DNA of 64,000 bases, taken from NCBI GenBank assembly GCA_947477885.1, contig CANJUD010000012.1, forward strand, positions 1-64,000, written 5' to 3'. The translations under genes were made by a program, and so were the position numbers. Of this stretch, positions 4,413-37,852 are shown in pieces. Under the pieces are notes generated by a model that did not search any database, was not told the origin of the DNA, and saw only the letters and a list, made by a program, of their open reading frames with translations. The stretch comes from Bacteroidota bacterium (GTDB taxonomy: Bacteria > Bacteroidota > Bacteroidia > UKL13-3). How positions within the stretch are numbered: the first letter of the stretch is position 1; every line of letters begins with the position of its first letter.

Positions 4413-5504
4413 TCAATATTGCAATAACTTCTTCAAAGTAATCCTATCCATCTTTCCACTATCTGTTTTGGGTAATCCATTTATATATAATACTTCTTTG
4501 GGTTTTTCATAAACAGATAATTGATCAAAATTGAAATCTATTTTTTCATCCCCTTCTATAAGCAATACTACCCTCTCCCCCAGCCTATCATCAGGTTTGG
4601 AGGATATGATATAATTTCTGTTTTGGATTTGAGCTGCCAATTTTTGTTCTAAAATTTCAGGATTAATTTTTATTCCGCCAGTATTAATTACAAAATCTGC
4701 CCTTCCAATAAATTTGATTTTGTTTGTATTTTTTAGGTCGGCTATATCATTTGTTTGTAGCCAAATATTGTTTGTGATATCTCCTTTTATTTTCAAACAA
4801 TCTCGTTCATCGGTTCCAATTTCTATTCCATCAAAAATCTTATAATATTCTTCTGTTATTCCTTTGCTCAACTTACGTAAAGCTATGCTGGAAGACGTTT
4901 CCGTCATGCCATAAGTTTGGTAAATTTCATTTGTAAATGTATATAATATTTCTTCTAAATGTTTGCTTATTGGAGAACCACCTAGGAGTACGGATTTTAT
5001 ATTTTGTATTTTCACCCTGAGCGTAGTCGAAGGGTTGTTTTTTATTAATTTTTCTAGCTGTAAGGGAACAAATGATGAATGATGAATTTCTATATTTTGC
5101 TCAAAAAATGCTATAATACTTCCAACTTGTGGCGGGCACACATATATATTTAATCCCAACTGCAACGCACGAAGCAAAACCATCGCACCTCCTATATGAC
5201 GTGGGTTTAAGCATAGTAAACAATTTTGATTTGGAATATATTCAATAACCGATGCTGTACGAGTTATGGAAGCAATAATTTGCTGCCGTGTTACTATAAT
5301 ACTTTTTGCATTTCCAGTCGAGCCCGATGTGAAGAACTCAAAAAATTCTTCTCCGTCAACCCAGCGTTTTGCAAGTGCTAATATATATTCATTTGATGAC
5401 AACAACTCTTCATGAAAATCATCCTGCGATGTCATCTCCGTTACCTCATCAAAAAAAACTTTCTGATGGCTTGGATAAAAATATATATAGTTTTTTTCTA
5501 TCAC
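4413..5504 (-). CDS. menE: Short AMP-binding acyl-CoA ligase, probably o-succinylbenzoate-CoA ligase
   Basis: 363 residues, the short form usual for MenE in Bacteroidota. The adenylation motif TSGSTGNAKSIIV (~59-71), the YQTYGMTETSSS motif, the GRADFVINTGG hinge and the C-terminal catalytic Lys in LPKTDSGKMDR are all present. MenE makes o-succinylbenzoyl-CoA for menaquinone, the main quinone of this phylum. The start is GTG at 5504, seven bases after the stop of the upstream gene; an internal ATG at residue ~24 is the alternative. No other men gene is in the window, so the specific substrate is inferred. The stretch encoding NPSTTLRVK coincides with a dispersed repeat inside the gene (5013-5037). 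Confidence 0.75.
   Translation of the reverse strand: MIEKNYIYFYPSHQKVFFDEVTEMTSQDDFHEELLSSNEYILALAKRWVDGEEFFEFFTSGSTGNAKSIIVTRQQIIASITRTASVIEYIPNQNCLLCLNPRHIGGAMVLLRALQLGLNIYVCPPQVGSIIAFFEQNIEIHHSSFVPLQLEKLIKNNPSTTLRVKIQNIKSVLLGGSPISKHLEEILYTFTNEIYQTYGMTETSSSIALRKLSKGITEEYYKIFDGIEIGTDERDCLKIKGDITNNIWLQTNDIADLKNTNKIKFIGRADFVINTGGIKINPEILEQKLAAQIQNRNYIISSKPDDRLGERVVLLIEGDEKIDFNFDQLSVYEKPKEVLYINGLPKTDSGKMDRITLKKLLQY
5013..5037. repeat. Dispersed repeat inserted within the menE coding region
   Basis: The 20-mer CCCTGAGCGTAGTCGAAGGG here occurs again, inverted, at 28913-28932 in non-coding DNA. Related copies lie near 46500, 47110, 58178 and 63262. Here it is in frame and encodes the residues PSTTLRV. 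Confidence 0.8.
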
Positions 5505-7519: not shown

Positions 7520-7632
7520 TAAATGTCAGTCTTAGTTTATCGAAGACGGCGTTTGGAAGCATGCTTTTAAATTTGTCAGTGCTTCGATAAAACTCAGCAT
7601 GACAAATTTAAGCCTCCTCGCAATGACGACAG
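7520..7632. repeat. Dispersed repeats after gltX
   Basis: Contains a hairpin with 10-bp arms (AAATTTGTCA ... TGACAAATTT, 7569-7609) and the recurrent TCCTCGCAATGACG motif (also near 21877 and 37830). The part CAGTCTTAGTTTATCGAAGACGG resembles 43967-43990. Confidence 0.55.
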
Positions 7633-19137: not shown

Positions 19138-19614
19138 TTATTTTGGTATCACATTAAAATTAATGGTGATTACATAATCGTTTCTAACCTCATTCTTGTC
19201 GCACTTGCCATGCTTGGTTGGGCGTGAACCTTTTGGTGGCGGAGGACCTTGCTTGGTACTATCCATTGGAGGAGGCGTTTTGGCAGAATCTAAAGGTGGT
19301 GGAGGTCCAGCATGGCTACCTTCAACAGTACTCAAAACTACTTTGTCAGTTCCTGTATAGGTAGCATCAGGCACATACTTATACATAAGTGCACCTAGTG
19401 AATCTACACCCAATATACTAATACTTCCGTGTGCAGGTTGTGTAGTAATTGCAAATGCATCATTGGTGTTTGTGGGTAATGCATAAGCGTACGTTGCACC
19501 TTGGGCTACAGTGGCATTCTCGGTGGGTGTGAGCAGCGTCTCTGCTTTCTTGCAGCTCGGCATGAAGAACATCGCAGTGCCGGTAATTGCCAGCATTAAA
19601 ATTGATTTTTTCAT
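19138..19614 (-). CDS. Lipoprotein with an Ig-like (cadherin-type) domain and a Pro-rich tail
   Basis: From the ATG at 19614 this is 158 residues; the longer ORF from 19701 adds a basic N-terminus with no signal and is less likely. Lipoprotein signal: MKKSILMLAITGTAMFFMPSC with the lipobox Cys at residue ~21. An Ig-like stretch follows (ITTQPAHGSISILGVDSLGAL, YVPDATYTGTDKVVLSTVEG), then a Pro-rich linker (GPPPPLDS, PPPMDST, GPPPPKGS) and a C-terminal basic, Cys-containing end. No family name is assigned. Confidence 0.6.
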   Translation of the reverse strand: MKKSILMLAITGTAMFFMPSCKKAETLLTPTENATVAQGATYAYALPTNTNDAFAITTQPAHGSISILGVDSLGALMYKYVPDATYTGTDKVVLSTVEGSHAGPPPPLDSAKTPPPMDSTKQGPPPPKGSRPTKHGKCDKNEVRNDYVITINFNVIPK

Positions 19615-19949
19615 AATTCTGTTTTTGTTGTTAATTGGTGATTGAAATAATAATTTAGTAGATGTTCGTCGTATATTTTTTAATTGCTTTTCAAATACCA
19701 TTACGGGGGCAATTTTTAAAAGGTGGGGGCAGAAGAAGATTTTATATTTTATATTTTTGTCCGCCGCGGCGGATTACATTTTACTGACAAAAGATGAAAG
19801 ATGCATTCAGTAGAATTACGGAACGAAAGATAGGTATGGAGTAGAAAGTAACAATTGAATAGTGATAATAATCTTTATTATATAAAAGGATTAGGCACAT
19901 AGTTTACAAAAGACACAAACTGTCAAATATATACAGTTGATTTGCCAGT
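19615..19949. other. Intergenic region with GC palindrome, otherwise featureless
   Basis: Holds the palindrome TCCGCCGCGGCGGA at 19760-19773. Both flanking genes start on this side (divergent). No clear promoter was seen for the plus-strand gene at 19950. Confidence 0.5.
19760..19773. repeat. GC palindrome TCCGCCGCGGCGGA
   Basis: Perfect 14-bp palindrome; identical to the site at 38390-38403. Confidence 0.85.
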
Positions 19950-20054
19950 ATGAAAAAAGATATATTAGATTTTAAAAGCATGAATTATTTGGAGTTCACA
20001 GACAGATTTAAAACAGACCAAGACTGTTCTGATTATCTGTGGCAACTCAAATGG
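19950..20054 (+). mobile_element. IS1595-like transposase 5' fragment
   Basis: The first ~35 codons match the F-x(2-3)-F-x-T(D/E)-x2-C-x2-YL-x2-L(K/R)W pattern at the start of IS1595-family transposases. The rest of the element is missing. Confidence 0.55.
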
Positions 20055-21815
20055 GTAGGCGATAGCATTACCATTAAGTTTAAACCCACTATAGCATTAA
20101 ACACCAACAAAACTATATATTGTGGTTCTCAAACAATAGCCGCACAGGTAAATTATAGATATAGTGATACCGTACAAGTAACATGGGGAGATGGGAAAGA
20201 TACGCTATTATATGTTGCAGATACCAACCTTGTAGATAGTGTGCAGTTGCAACATATATATAACAAAACTGGCAACTATACCACAAGCAGCAAGGCATGG
20301 AACAGTAACTGTTATGATAGTGTGGCTAATATATATAATATAAGCGTAGATACTATACCCAAGGCAAGTTTTAGTGCAGATTATATAACAAGCTGTGGTG
20401 CAAAAACTATATTACTTTCAGATACTTCAAAATTTGATAGTGTTATAATAAATAGAACTTGGCATATATATAAACCTAATGGTTTGGATACAACTATTAC
20501 CACAGGTACAAATAATCAATTATCATTTTTGTTCAATGATACAGGAATGTATTCTGTTAAATTAACAGTACAAAGCAAACAGGGTTGTATAGCTTCAATA
20601 GAGAATATTAATTATATACAAATAAATCCATTTCCTATTAGTAAAATAAGTGGGAAAACAGGTTGGTGTGGTGCGGATTCGACTACGCTCACCGTAACAG
20701 GAGGTATGCGTTATATATGGAGCACGGGAGATACAACTGCTTCTATATTTTTAAAACCTATCGCATCTAACTATTATAGTGTGCTTGTCACTAATAACTA
20801 TAATTGTTCTGTTAAAGATTCAGTTTATATAAGTGTTGGCAAAATTGTAACACCCTATTTCACGCCCAATTATCTCCAAAGCTGTGGAAACAGCACTATC
20901 ACCCTTACAGATAGCAGCGGCGATATGGATAGCCTTATACAGCAAAGAAAATGGACAATCTATTATCCTAACAACATAGTAAAACAATATGATACTGTTA
21001 CTACCAACAAACTAAAACTAATAGTACAGGATACTGGATACTATAATGCAAAACTTATATATATAACCAAACAGGGTTGCACAGATTCATTATATAAAAC
21101 AAATGTATTCCGTATACTACCACAGCCTGCTGTGTATATAGATAGTCCGAGCAATAACCCATTGTGTTTTGGAGATAGTTTTATACTCACCGCCAAACAA
21201 AAAGATATAAATTATCCACCGCTGGTAACATATAAATGGAACGCTGGGCAAGTGGCCACACCAAGTATTAAAGTAGATACCGCAAACAGTTATTATGTGA
21301 GTGCTTCCAATACTTACGGCTGCGGGGCACAAAGTAATACCGTTAAAATTAGTTTCTTGCCTCAGCTGTTTGCCAATATTAAAAAAGCAACCGATAGTTT
21401 ATATGTGGTCACCACAAGAAAAATTGTAAGCTATACTTGGCATAAAGACAGTATCGTATACAATACTACATCATCATTGTATCACCCGCCCACGGGTAGG
21501 TATTATGTGCATGTGGAGGATGCGAATGGATGTGTGGGTAGCAGCGGGTCTTTATTATATACAAACAGTATTAGTTATATCAATGAAGTACCCAATGGGA
21601 TAAGGGTATATCCGAATCCTACAAATGATATGTTAAATATTGAAGGGCTGCCGAGTGGGAAAACAAACATTGCGATGTATGACCTGTTAGGAAAAAAAGT
21701 GTATAATACTTTTACAAATGGAGAAGCATTATATACTATATCAGTCGGGCATTTAGCAAAAGGATTATATATACTTTGTGTTGGGGAAGAAAAGGTAAAA
21801 ATAGCTGTTGAGTAA
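19950..21815 (+). CDS. PKD-domain T9SS cargo protein with an IS1595-like transposase N-terminus
   Basis: 621 residues. The C-terminus is a T9SS type A signal (IRVYPNPTNDMLNIEGLPSG, then LAKGLYILCVGEEKVKI). Residues ~50-480 contain several PKD-like repeats with VTWGDGKD and YNKTGNYT motifs. There is no signal peptide, which is wrong for a T9SS substrate. The first ~35 residues (including MNYLEFTDRFKTDQDCSDYL and the WQLKW end) look like the N-terminus of IS1595-family transposases, which continue with a zinc ribbon; here PKD-type sequence follows instead. It is probably a gene fusion from a deletion, and the product is likely not secreted. Confidence 0.7.
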   Translation: MKKDILDFKSMNYLEFTDRFKTDQDCSDYLWQLKWVGDSITIKFKPTIALNTNKTIYCGSQTIAAQVNYRYSDTVQVTWGDGKDTLLYVADTNLVDSVQLQHIYNKTGNYTTSSKAWNSNCYDSVANIYNISVDTIPKASFSADYITSCGAKTILLSDTSKFDSVIINRTWHIYKPNGLDTTITTGTNNQLSFLFNDTGMYSVKLTVQSKQGCIASIENINYIQINPFPISKISGKTGWCGADSTTLTVTGGMRYIWSTGDTTASIFLKPIASNYYSVLVTNNYNCSVKDSVYISVGKIVTPYFTPNYLQSCGNSTITLTDSSGDMDSLIQQRKWTIYYPNNIVKQYDTVTTNKLKLIVQDTGYYNAKLIYITKQGCTDSLYKTNVFRILPQPAVYIDSPSNNPLCFGDSFILTAKQKDINYPPLVTYKWNAGQVATPSIKVDTANSYYVSASNTYGCGAQSNTVKISFLPQLFANIKKATDSLYVVTTRKIVSYTWHKDSIVYNTTSSLYHPPTGRYYVHVEDANGCVGSSGSLLYTNSISYINEVPNGIRVYPNPTNDMLNIEGLPSGKTNIAMYDLLGKKVYNTFTNGEALYTISVGHLAKGLYILCVGEEKVKIAVE

Positions 21816-21903
21816 TTTGTTCAATGCTTCGCGTTTAGGGTTAGCCGCGTCGCCCTACCCGCATGGCTTGCACACTGCTCCTCGCAATGACGCGTAAGGG
21901 GGT

Positions 21904-24900
21904 TTAATCTCTCCTATTCAACTTACACCAGTCACATTTCCCGCAACCTTTGTCGAACTCGTGGTTTTTGATTCTATGGTAAACATCCTTTATTTGTCCT
22001 GATAGTAACGCAGTTTCTTCGTGTATGATATTCAATGTCTCCTCATGAAACACTTTGGTATCCTTATCCGGTTCTATAAATTGATATACTGCTTTATCGA
22101 AGTTCCAACCGCGGCTGCGGGCTTTGGGGTCGTTGTCTAATAGTATTTTATAGAATACAGCTTGTCTCCAATAATCACCGCCGAGTGCAAGTTCCGGATC
22201 TACATTTTCAGGGTCGGGGCGGTTCAATTTTGCCTTCTCAAACTTACCTGTTTTATAATCTATTACGGTAGCTTTGCTACCATCAAATTCCAGTTTATCT
22301 ATAAATCCTTTTAAGGGTATATCATTAAAAATTACGGCTTCCATCCTCACCTCAGTTTGTATAATAGGATTCCATTTATCTTTGAAATGTGCATGATATC
22401 TTTTCAAAACATCAATTCCATATTCTATTCTGCGTTCGTATTCTTCAGCTACAAATTCATGTTTCCTTAAATACATTTCGTAAGTAAAAAAACTCACGAG
22501 CTCTTCTGCATTGTCGAAAGTTTTTTCTTCTTTGTTTTTATTAAAGTATCGCTCCAAAGCCTTATGCACTGTGCTCCCGAATGATAATGCTGGAGAACTT
22601 CCAGTAGGAACTTTCAACAAATACATATAATAAAAACCGATCGGGCATTCTAAATATGCATTAAGATGTGATACACTTAATTTATAATCGCCCAACAGAT
22701 TTTCCATTTCTTCGTTGGCCAACAATTCGGGCTTGGTTTCTTTTTGTTCTTCCATCACCAAAGCCAATGCTTCTGCCAAAATATCTCCATCCGCTTCGGG
22801 GCGTTCTATGATAATACCTGCTTGTTCCACCTCCGGAACAAATCGCGTAGGGATTGATTCTTTGCCTTCGTTATCATTATTATAATAACTCATATACAAA
22901 CCTTTTTTTGCCCGAGTCATCCCCACATAAAATAATCTCCGACTTTCTTCTATCGCTAGGTCATCTGTATTCACAGCCATCTGACTGGCTTGGCGTTGGG
23001 TATGATCTAATATATTTGGTGGAAATTTAAATCTATCACCCTTTTTACTTCCTTCCCAATATTTGCCAACAAGTCCTACCATAAATACATGCTCAAATTC
23101 CAAACCTTTGCTGCTATGTGCCGTAGTAAATTTCACACCTTTGCCAGTGCCAGTATTTAACACCGCTTCCAAAGTTATATGATACTCTGTCATTAATTTT
23201 AAACTTTGCATAAAGCGTTCTATATTTAATCCGGGTGCTTTATGTTCTTCAATTGTTATATAATTATGCAAAGCATGAATCTGTTGCAAATACAAATTTC
23301 TTTCGGGATGATGCAGTGCAAATTTCAATGCCCCCGAACGGGTAATCACGTCTTCAAAAAACTGTAATAAAGTTTTATTGGCACATGCCGGAACCCAATG
23401 GTTTATATTATCGGCCAATTTTGAAGCCGTCTTTTCAAATTCACTCAACCCGCTGAAAAGATTAGGCTTTTCGGGCGTTGCTATATTTTCCAACGCAATG
23501 CGAAGTGAATTTATATTACCTTTTGTTTTGGGTGTTTTTTGCCACTTAGCCATAAATCGAGCAGCTTCAACAGGCGGACCAAAACCCAAGAAATCTATAT
23601 GTAATAGCTGGAATAATAAATCATCATTACTGTGCGGTCTGTCGACTTGGATTTTTATATAATTAAGTAACTTAATTAAATGTTGCGTAAACGGTTCTTT
23701 TAATACATCTATTTTCCGTTGCAAACTCACAGGTATTTCTTTTTGCTTGAAAAACTTAACGAGGTTTTCTACCTGACGGTGCTCTCTATATATAATTGCA
23801 ATTTCTGCAGGGTCGGTATTCTCTTCTATCAATTCCATGATATGCTTGGCGACGCCCGCCATTTCAGCAGTTTCGGTAGGATAGTTTATAATAACTGGCT
23901 GATGTATATCATTGGCAAATTTTCCTTTTGCAATTAATTTTTTATCTAATTTTTCAAAGCCAGCAATACGTGTAATACGCTCAATATTTAAATCGATAAC
24001 GGCTTTGGATGCATCCAAAATATGTTGGTTACTTCTGTAATTATCTTGCAACATCACCACTTTTAAATGGGCATCATATTGTTGTTTGAAATTAAAAATA
24101 TTAGCCACATTCGCACCTTGAAATCTATATATACTTTGGTCATCATCGCCTACTACAAATATATTGGGATTGGGCCAATAACTGCATAACATTTGCACCA
24201 ATTGGTTTTGTGCATCATTCGTATCCTGAAACTCATCGACCAATATATATTGATAACGTTCCTGTGAGGTTTGTAATACATGGGGGCGATCTTTGAACAA
24301 TTGAAGCACCCACAATATCATATCATTAAAATCGTAGCGGCCCAGTTCTTTTAATTGTTCATTATACACGGGACATAGATTTGCTGCTGCAATGAGTTGC
24401 TCCATACCCTGTCGTAAATCGAAATTAGGTTTTGGTTTCGCATCGCCTGCATTGAATTGCTTGTACTTTTTTTGATAATAAAATTCTGGATTTGTATTAT
24501 TACTTTCTACTTCTATAATATATTCTTTTGCTTTCGTTTCTATATAATCGGGCATCCAATTTTCATGCTTCATCACACTGAATAATTTTTGCAAATGAGC
24601 TACATCATAATATGGTGCACCGCCTTGTCTTTTTAGTGGATGACTGAGCGGTAATTTGTCAATCATTTTTCGCAGCAATTCTATTACTTCAATTTCCGTA
24701 ACCGGACTCATCTCACGCAATCCAAAATCGGCAGCGTTTTGCTGGATGATATCATTACAAAACGAGTGAAAAGTTTCTATTTTTATTCTGTATGCATCGG
24801 GTCCAATCATGCCTAGCAAACGTTTACGCATAGCCACCACACCTGCATTGGTATAGGTAATACATAATATATTCTCAGGTGCAGCGTGGGTAGTATCTGC

Positions 24901-25053
24901 CTCCAATATACGCCCGATACGTGTGGCAAGAATCTGTGTCTTGCCCGTGCCTGGACCAGCAATTACGAGCACTGGGCCTTCTATCTGATCAACTGCTTGG
25001 CGTTGGGCTTCGTTCAGTTTATTATATGCGTCTTGGTATGGAGTTGTTGACAT
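21904..25053 (-). CDS. UvrD/Rep-type helicase with C-terminal Fe-S PD-(D/E)XK nuclease
   Basis: About 1049 residues from ATG 25053 (an upstream in-frame ATG at 25095 adds 14 residues). SF1A motifs in order: GPGTGKT, VDEFQDTND, GDDDQSIYRFQGAN, LQDNYRSN, FTTAHSSKGLEFEHVF, and RRLFYVGMTRAKK. The C-terminal ~230 residues carry an AddB/RecB-type nuclease: SVSHLNAYLECPIGF, VIDYKTGKFEK, and a cysteine cluster CGKCDWC near the end, which with the Cys of ECPIGF gives the four Cys of an Fe-S nuclease. Likely works in double-strand-break processing or mismatch/replication repair. A TAnnTTTG element is at 25110-25117. Confidence 0.88.
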   Translation of the reverse strand: MSTTPYQDAYNKLNEAQRQAVDQIEGPVLVIAGPGTGKTQILATRIGRILEADTTHAAPENILCITYTNAGVVAMRKRLLGMIGPDAYRIKIETFHSFCNDIIQQNAADFGLREMSPVTEIEVIELLRKMIDKLPLSHPLKRQGGAPYYDVAHLQKLFSVMKHENWMPDYIETKAKEYIIEVESNNTNPEFYYQKKYKQFNAGDAKPKPNFDLRQGMEQLIAAANLCPVYNEQLKELGRYDFNDMILWVLQLFKDRPHVLQTSQERYQYILVDEFQDTNDAQNQLVQMLCSYWPNPNIFVVGDDDQSIYRFQGANVANIFNFKQQYDAHLKVVMLQDNYRSNQHILDASKAVIDLNIERITRIAGFEKLDKKLIAKGKFANDIHQPVIINYPTETAEMAGVAKHIMELIEENTDPAEIAIIYREHRQVENLVKFFKQKEIPVSLQRKIDVLKEPFTQHLIKLLNYIKIQVDRPHSNDDLLFQLLHIDFLGFGPPVEAARFMAKWQKTPKTKGNINSLRIALENIATPEKPNLFSGLSEFEKTASKLADNINHWVPACANKTLLQFFEDVITRSGALKFALHHPERNLYLQQIHALHNYITIEEHKAPGLNIERFMQSLKLMTEYHITLEAVLNTGTGKGVKFTTAHSSKGLEFEHVFMVGLVGKYWEGSKKGDRFKFPPNILDHTQRQASQMAVNTDDLAIEESRRLFYVGMTRAKKGLYMSYYNNDNEGKESIPTRFVPEVEQAGIIIERPEADGDILAEALALVMEEQKETKPELLANEEMENLLGDYKLSVSHLNAYLECPIGFYYMYLLKVPTGSSPALSFGSTVHKALERYFNKNKEEKTFDNAEELVSFFTYEMYLRKHEFVAEEYERRIEYGIDVLKRYHAHFKDKWNPIIQTEVRMEAVIFNDIPLKGFIDKLEFDGSKATVIDYKTGKFEKAKLNRPDPENVDPELALGGDYWRQAVFYKILLDNDPKARSRGWNFDKAVYQFIEPDKDTKVFHEETLNIIHEETALLSGQIKDVYHRIKNHEFDKGCGKCDWCKLNRRD

Positions 25054-25109
25054 AAAGTTATGGGATATGTTATGGTTGACGGGTACACCAACCATGGACG
25101 ATTAAGGTA

Positions 25110-37664: not shown

Positions 37665-37852
37665 TCTATATAATTGTTTGATAACTAAATCGGATATTAG
37701 ACCCTTAATAATTCCATACATCACTTCTAGGGTTAGTTTGTATATCCAAGCTAGGGAAACCGAAGCAATATCCATTGGAGCATAATCCTAGAGTGGAGAT
37801 TGCCACGTCGTCCCGAATGCATTCGAGATCCTCGCAATGACGGCAATAAATA
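37665..37852. other. Intergenic repeats
   Basis: Contains the perfect 12-bp palindrome CGAATGCATTCG at 37814-37825 and the recurrent TCCTCGCAATGACGGC motif (37829-37844). Confidence 0.5.

Follow-up and report, generated by a model that had tools for sequence, protein, structure and literature searches.

The window analysed here, a stretch of 64,000 nucleotides from a Bacteroidota genome, carries an open reading frame of 621 amino acids on the forward strand (19950..21815), whose ATG, at 19950, is the start codon of a transposase. The frame consists of about 35 residues of an IS1595-family transposase followed by the last 587 residues of a PKD/T9SS family protein. To its left lies a small lipoprotein-like gene, named from its sequence (19138..19701, minus strand), and to its right a minus-strand gene (21904..25095) that we take to encode a UvrD-type helicase. 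The intergenic stretch before the helicase gene (21844..21892) includes a CATTGCGAGGAG-type repeat; it is common to the same-genus genome G001, where it also lies beside the helicase gene, and it resembles the 3' flank of the PKD paralog L016. Repeats of this type occur three times in the window with at most one mismatch (7614-7625, 21878-21889, and 37828-37839) versus 0.18 expected by chance.

A preliminary description had proposed an in-frame fusion of an IS1595-like transposase start with a PKD/T9SS protein, and the genome itself bears this out, since both parents and the joint between them can be seen in it. When the first 73 residues were searched against the genome at the protein level, the matches fell into two sets: C9:142617 (L009) and C20:14155 (L010) align with residues 1-44 and 1-35, respectively, while residues 32-73 find their matches at eight different places, in open frames that are 904-1068 amino acids long.

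The first parent left about 170 bp on the forward strand (19888..20055), made up of 62 bp of left end and leader, then the 35 codons that open the transposase gene of an IS1595-family element; it is recognized by DNA identity to L009 and L010. Its left boundary was placed at ~19888, where the three relics cease to agree. Window DNA matches L009 at 95% (19876-20055) and L010 at 88% (19887-20055). Over the 166 aligned columns from ATTAGGCAC at the left end to AATGGG, the window and L009 are identical at 162, with four differences; private differences number one in the window, three in L009, and 19 in L010. Protein identity to L009 is 77% over window residues 1-44, and the L009 frame itself matches PF12760 (Zn_ribbon_IS1595; 2.5e-6), PF12762 (DDE_Tnp_IS1595; 2.2e-8), and NF033547 (6.2e-29), all over the cut-offs. 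The first 57 residues of the window protein alone match no Pfam family at E<=1; the models need more sequence than this head offers, and L009 and L010 are what identify it. The whole window protein likewise has no match to PF12760 or PF12762 at E<=1, in agreement with the earlier reading of a transposase-type start with no zinc ribbon past the joint.

With the zinc ribbon and catalytic domain gone, the IS piece is a remnant and no longer an element. Its leader DNA and the 35 residues that open the frame correspond to the 5' end of IS1595-family insertion sequences, and two further relics lie in the same genome; unlike such elements, however, the window keeps only ~170 bp, with neither zinc ribbon nor catalytic domain nor detected right end, so this copy should be unable to move. 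In genome G022, a related element is present in copies that align over about 964 bp; by that measure, roughly a sixth remains in the window. The intact IS1595 that the preliminary description had suggested looking for was not found in the 25-contig assembly, where the one PF12762 match is itself truncated. A DNA search of 64 family genomes for close intact copies gave matches in three: the genome itself and two with partial matches (112-124 bases, 71-72%). Protein matches were found in 12 of 58 genomes, including its own, the best-scoring one outside it at 41% identity. A contig search of named records returned 18 loci at 33-56% identity, and the L009 frame was aligned to transposases from 10 of these (Bacteroidota and one Chlorobiota MAG, by titles), three of them with short frames.

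We also considered whether the PKD gene could be the cargo of a transposon flanked by an IS end on either side. Searching 20056-22300 with the left end in reverse complement (25 or 15 bp) gave nothing above shuffles, a test that also fails in L009 and L010. The IS1595 target-site duplication is 8 bp long; the 8-mers next to 19888 on its left have further copies within the AT-rich PKD frame but none beyond the PKD stop. Such a transposon is not supported, as neither an inverted left end nor a target duplication was found past that stop, although this is weak evidence given that the right-end test fails in the other two relics as well. The left flank (19795-19880) has its best match outside its own place at E 0.26, in a search of three genomes.

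The second parent is represented by the 3' part of a PKD/T9SS gene (20050..21815, forward strand), in which 587 residues are kept and ~450-465 N-terminal residues are missing; six paralogs match it from the first residue. Pfam searches of the window protein detected Por_Secre_tail (1e-12) and PKD_4 (3.8e-6), and the T9SS type A sorting domain (Por_Secre_tail) spans residues 553-615 (21606..21794, forward strand). Window residues 35-621 thus correspond to the C-terminal part of PKD-domain proteins with a T9SS type A sorting domain (PF18962, TIGR04183), but transposase sequence takes the place of some 450-465 N-terminal residues and of the signal segment that they include.

The six other PKD paralogs of this genome (on C15, C9, C1:399642, C2, C5:145352, and C5:1) match from the joint onward at 74-80% protein identity; at the DNA level, the match begins at window 20050-20052, with 78-82% identity. 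The C5:1 paralog, cut by a contig end, matches residues 1-453 only. Further places in the genome give partial or weak matches to the PKD part, and two more distant relatives share 37-46% identity over the first 41-42 residues. Ahead of the joint, the open frames of the six paralogs run for 395-473 residues when measured from the preceding stop, and for 452-465 residues from the first Met as counted by hand in five of them. The 5' half of L016 has 11 matches in the genome, nine of them in eight full paralogs (one in two frames) and the remaining two short (~50 residues), PKD-like, and located in other long frames. A free piece carrying the lost 5' end of the PKD gene, which the preliminary description had hoped to locate, is not among these 11.

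Some members of the family have irregular structures. On C9, L013 (about 4500-4900), the sixth of the paralogs, has a signal-like segment out of frame with the rest of the gene, possibly through a frameshift. An orphan PKD tail lies at the end of contig C15 (L016, 1-415), a few kb before a full paralog. Genome G002 has a short PKD-family member on C205 (L122, 8127-8897) that lacks the middle: a signal-like head is fused, in frame, to the C-terminal ~158 residues.

At the joint, the two parents share a 6-bp microhomology, AATGGG (20050..20055, forward strand). The IS relics read CTCA/CGCA-AATGGG-GCA (CTCA in L009), five of the six PKD paralogs read GC-AATGGG-TGGG (the sixth, L017, has AGTGGG), and the window reads CTCA-AATGGG-TAGG. 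When positions of L009 and the paralogs were paired at random (847,200 pairings), a shared stretch of at least 6 bp arose in 0.23%. The shared 6 bp favors joining by short homology. We rejected the possibility that the 35 head residues are native to the PKD family, which would have undone the fusion reading: none of the six paralogs carries them across the joint, where they read GY[MKL]QWVGDS instead. Fusions that arise when a microhomology deletion occurs at the remnant of a mobile element have the same hallmarks of a short shared joint sequence, a truncated element, and a frame kept by chance, and we identified no difference from them.

The surroundings of the fused frame can be compared with related genomes. 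The left neighbor is conserved in G001, and the right neighbor is conserved in both G001 and G002. G002 has other genes on the 3' side of the helicase gene and is uninformative for the window locus, leaving G001 as the single genome with both neighbors in place. The two neighbors are about 1.3 kb apart in G001 versus 2.9 kb in the window; the alignment reaches window position 19801 and picks up again at 21844, and no PKD gene lies between both neighbors in G001. The PKD gene must therefore have been lost there or have come later into the window's lineage.

The two parts of the fused frame appear to differ in age. Synonymous divergence (dS) between the PKD part and the six paralogs is 0.758-1.254, the nearest being L016 (0.758) and L017 (0.762), which form the sister group of the window PKD part in the tree (support 0.97). 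The PKD part is thus old by sequence comparison, while the IS piece looks young, with its single private change in 166 columns among the three copies compared. The IS was thus probably a young arrival at a PKD gene that was already old. The PKD part shows no sign of decay: the frame is open over 587 codons, and dN/dS is no higher between the window and the six paralogs (0.10-0.24) than among the six (0.11-0.25). Because most of the divergence should predate the fusion, the low dN/dS of the window would reflect selection before it.

What the fused protein lacks is an export signal. By hydropathy only, its first 40 residues contain no hydrophobic segment that could serve as an N-terminal Sec signal (best 12-residue Kyte-Doolittle mean, 0.26), whereas all five paralogs measured start with a hydrophobic signal segment (2.2-2.9). 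Together with the 5' halves of the paralogs, this upholds the earlier statement that the start native to the family, signal segment included, is missing. The further suggestion that the original start was replaced holds in that the native start has been lost, but the junction is best taken as a deletion joint rather than as the recruitment of a new start. Known T9SS cargo requires a Sec signal to enter the periplasm; the fusion product should therefore not reach the T9SS, and we take it for a relic. Judged from sequence, the fusion is probably a young, non-functional relic with a T9SS tail, no export signal, and a frame that is still open; we infer the absence of function from the missing signal.

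Our preferred reading, to which we give a probability of about 0.75, is an IS1595 insertion upstream of an old PKD paralog followed by a microhomology deletion that left a young relic. First, an IS1595-family element would have landed in the gap separating the lipoprotein-like gene from an older PKD/T9SS paralog that was still full-length. A deletion from AATGGG in the transposase gene to AATGGG in the PKD gene would have followed, taking with it the remainder of the IS together with some 450-465 PKD codons, among them those for the signal peptide; the chance that the frame survived this was one in three. Translation would begin at the transposase ATG, and the product would retain the PKD repeats and T9SS tail, without a Sec signal. 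We infer the order of events and the deletion itself from several observations: the IS parent is present in the same genome at the DNA level, the paralogs have their own 5' halves and signal segments, and the 6-bp match lies at the joint. We also count in favor of a deletion that the same element is internally deleted in L010 and truncated in L009, that an old PKD part is joined to a young IS piece, and that G001 has no PKD gene between the neighbors. Against this stand the open PKD frame without decay, the need for the PKD gene to have been lost in G001 or gained later in the window's lineage, the fact that the youth of the IS piece is judged from three copies, and the reliance on G001 as the sole genome for the locus.

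Alternatively, the PKD 3' part could have been copied from another paralog into an IS1595 copy, by homologous pairing at the right intergenic repeat and microhomology on the left. The flank that L016 shares with the window, including the repeat, and the position of L016 and L017 as sister group are in line with such copying, and so is the repeat beside the helicase gene in G001. However, even these nearest paralogs are separated from the window by a dS that contrasts with the one private IS change, which disfavors a recent copy of any living paralog, and the donor would need to be lost or absent from the assembly. We therefore consider copying unlikely. That the joint is an assembly chimera is very improbable: the genome is a draft of 25 contigs with many similar PKD paralogs, but the 6 bp in common at the joint is below assembler overlaps, and the locus is syntenic with G001 on both sides.

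We assign a low probability, above that of a chimera and well below that of copying, to a working gene, in which a PKD protein that remains intracellular would owe its expression and its new N-terminus to the transposase start. All 621 codons are open and the PKD part has a low dN/dS, as such a gene would; yet a protein with a T9SS tail but no signal segment is at odds with how such cargo is known to be exported, and the apparent youth of the IS piece leaves too little time for the low dN/dS to reflect post-fusion selection. The deletion relic thus remains our preferred reading.

Both sister relics also lie next to genes for T9SS-tailed proteins. L010 (2823-2585, minus strand, on C20) is an internally deleted IS1595 copy that directly follows the stop codon of a gene with a T9SS tail, serine-hydrolase-like by its sequence. 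It reads HIDEFFYRFIRRNNRKCIFSML after AAATGGGGCA, and HIDEFFYRFIRRNNRKCIFSML aligns to transposase C-termini: for seven of nine references, 0/1000 shuffles reach the alignment score, with 1/1000 for one and 91/1000 for L052, whose frame is cut short. L009 (2541-3290, on C9) represents the 5' three quarters (about 750 bp) of an IS1595 element and leads into the start codon of a sulfatase-like T9SS gene. This gene, also named from sequence, keeps its signal segment; the boundary between IS and gene was placed by eye.

Genes with a T9SS tail adjoin all three relics, a pattern noticed after the fact in a genome with at least 150 T9SS-tail domains over the cut-off (150 of 202 candidates scored). 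The left breakpoint of the L010 deletion lies ~3 bp from the window joint. The proximity of these two breaks, the T9SS-tail genes abutting three of three relics, and the run of the L009 IS into a T9SS start codon led us to the speculative idea that the stretch around AAATGGGG in the IS1595 element is a preferred breakpoint, with breaks beside T9SS genes repeatedly making chimeric genes; we regard this as improbable.

The locus offers a base-by-base view of how a gene for a secreted protein would lose its head and gain a transposase start through a 6-bp match. For annotators, it is a warning that such a frame would be neither a transposase nor an exported T9SS protein. The event is of an ordinary type, seen here in a clean case, and says little that is new about IS1595 or the PKD/T9SS family.
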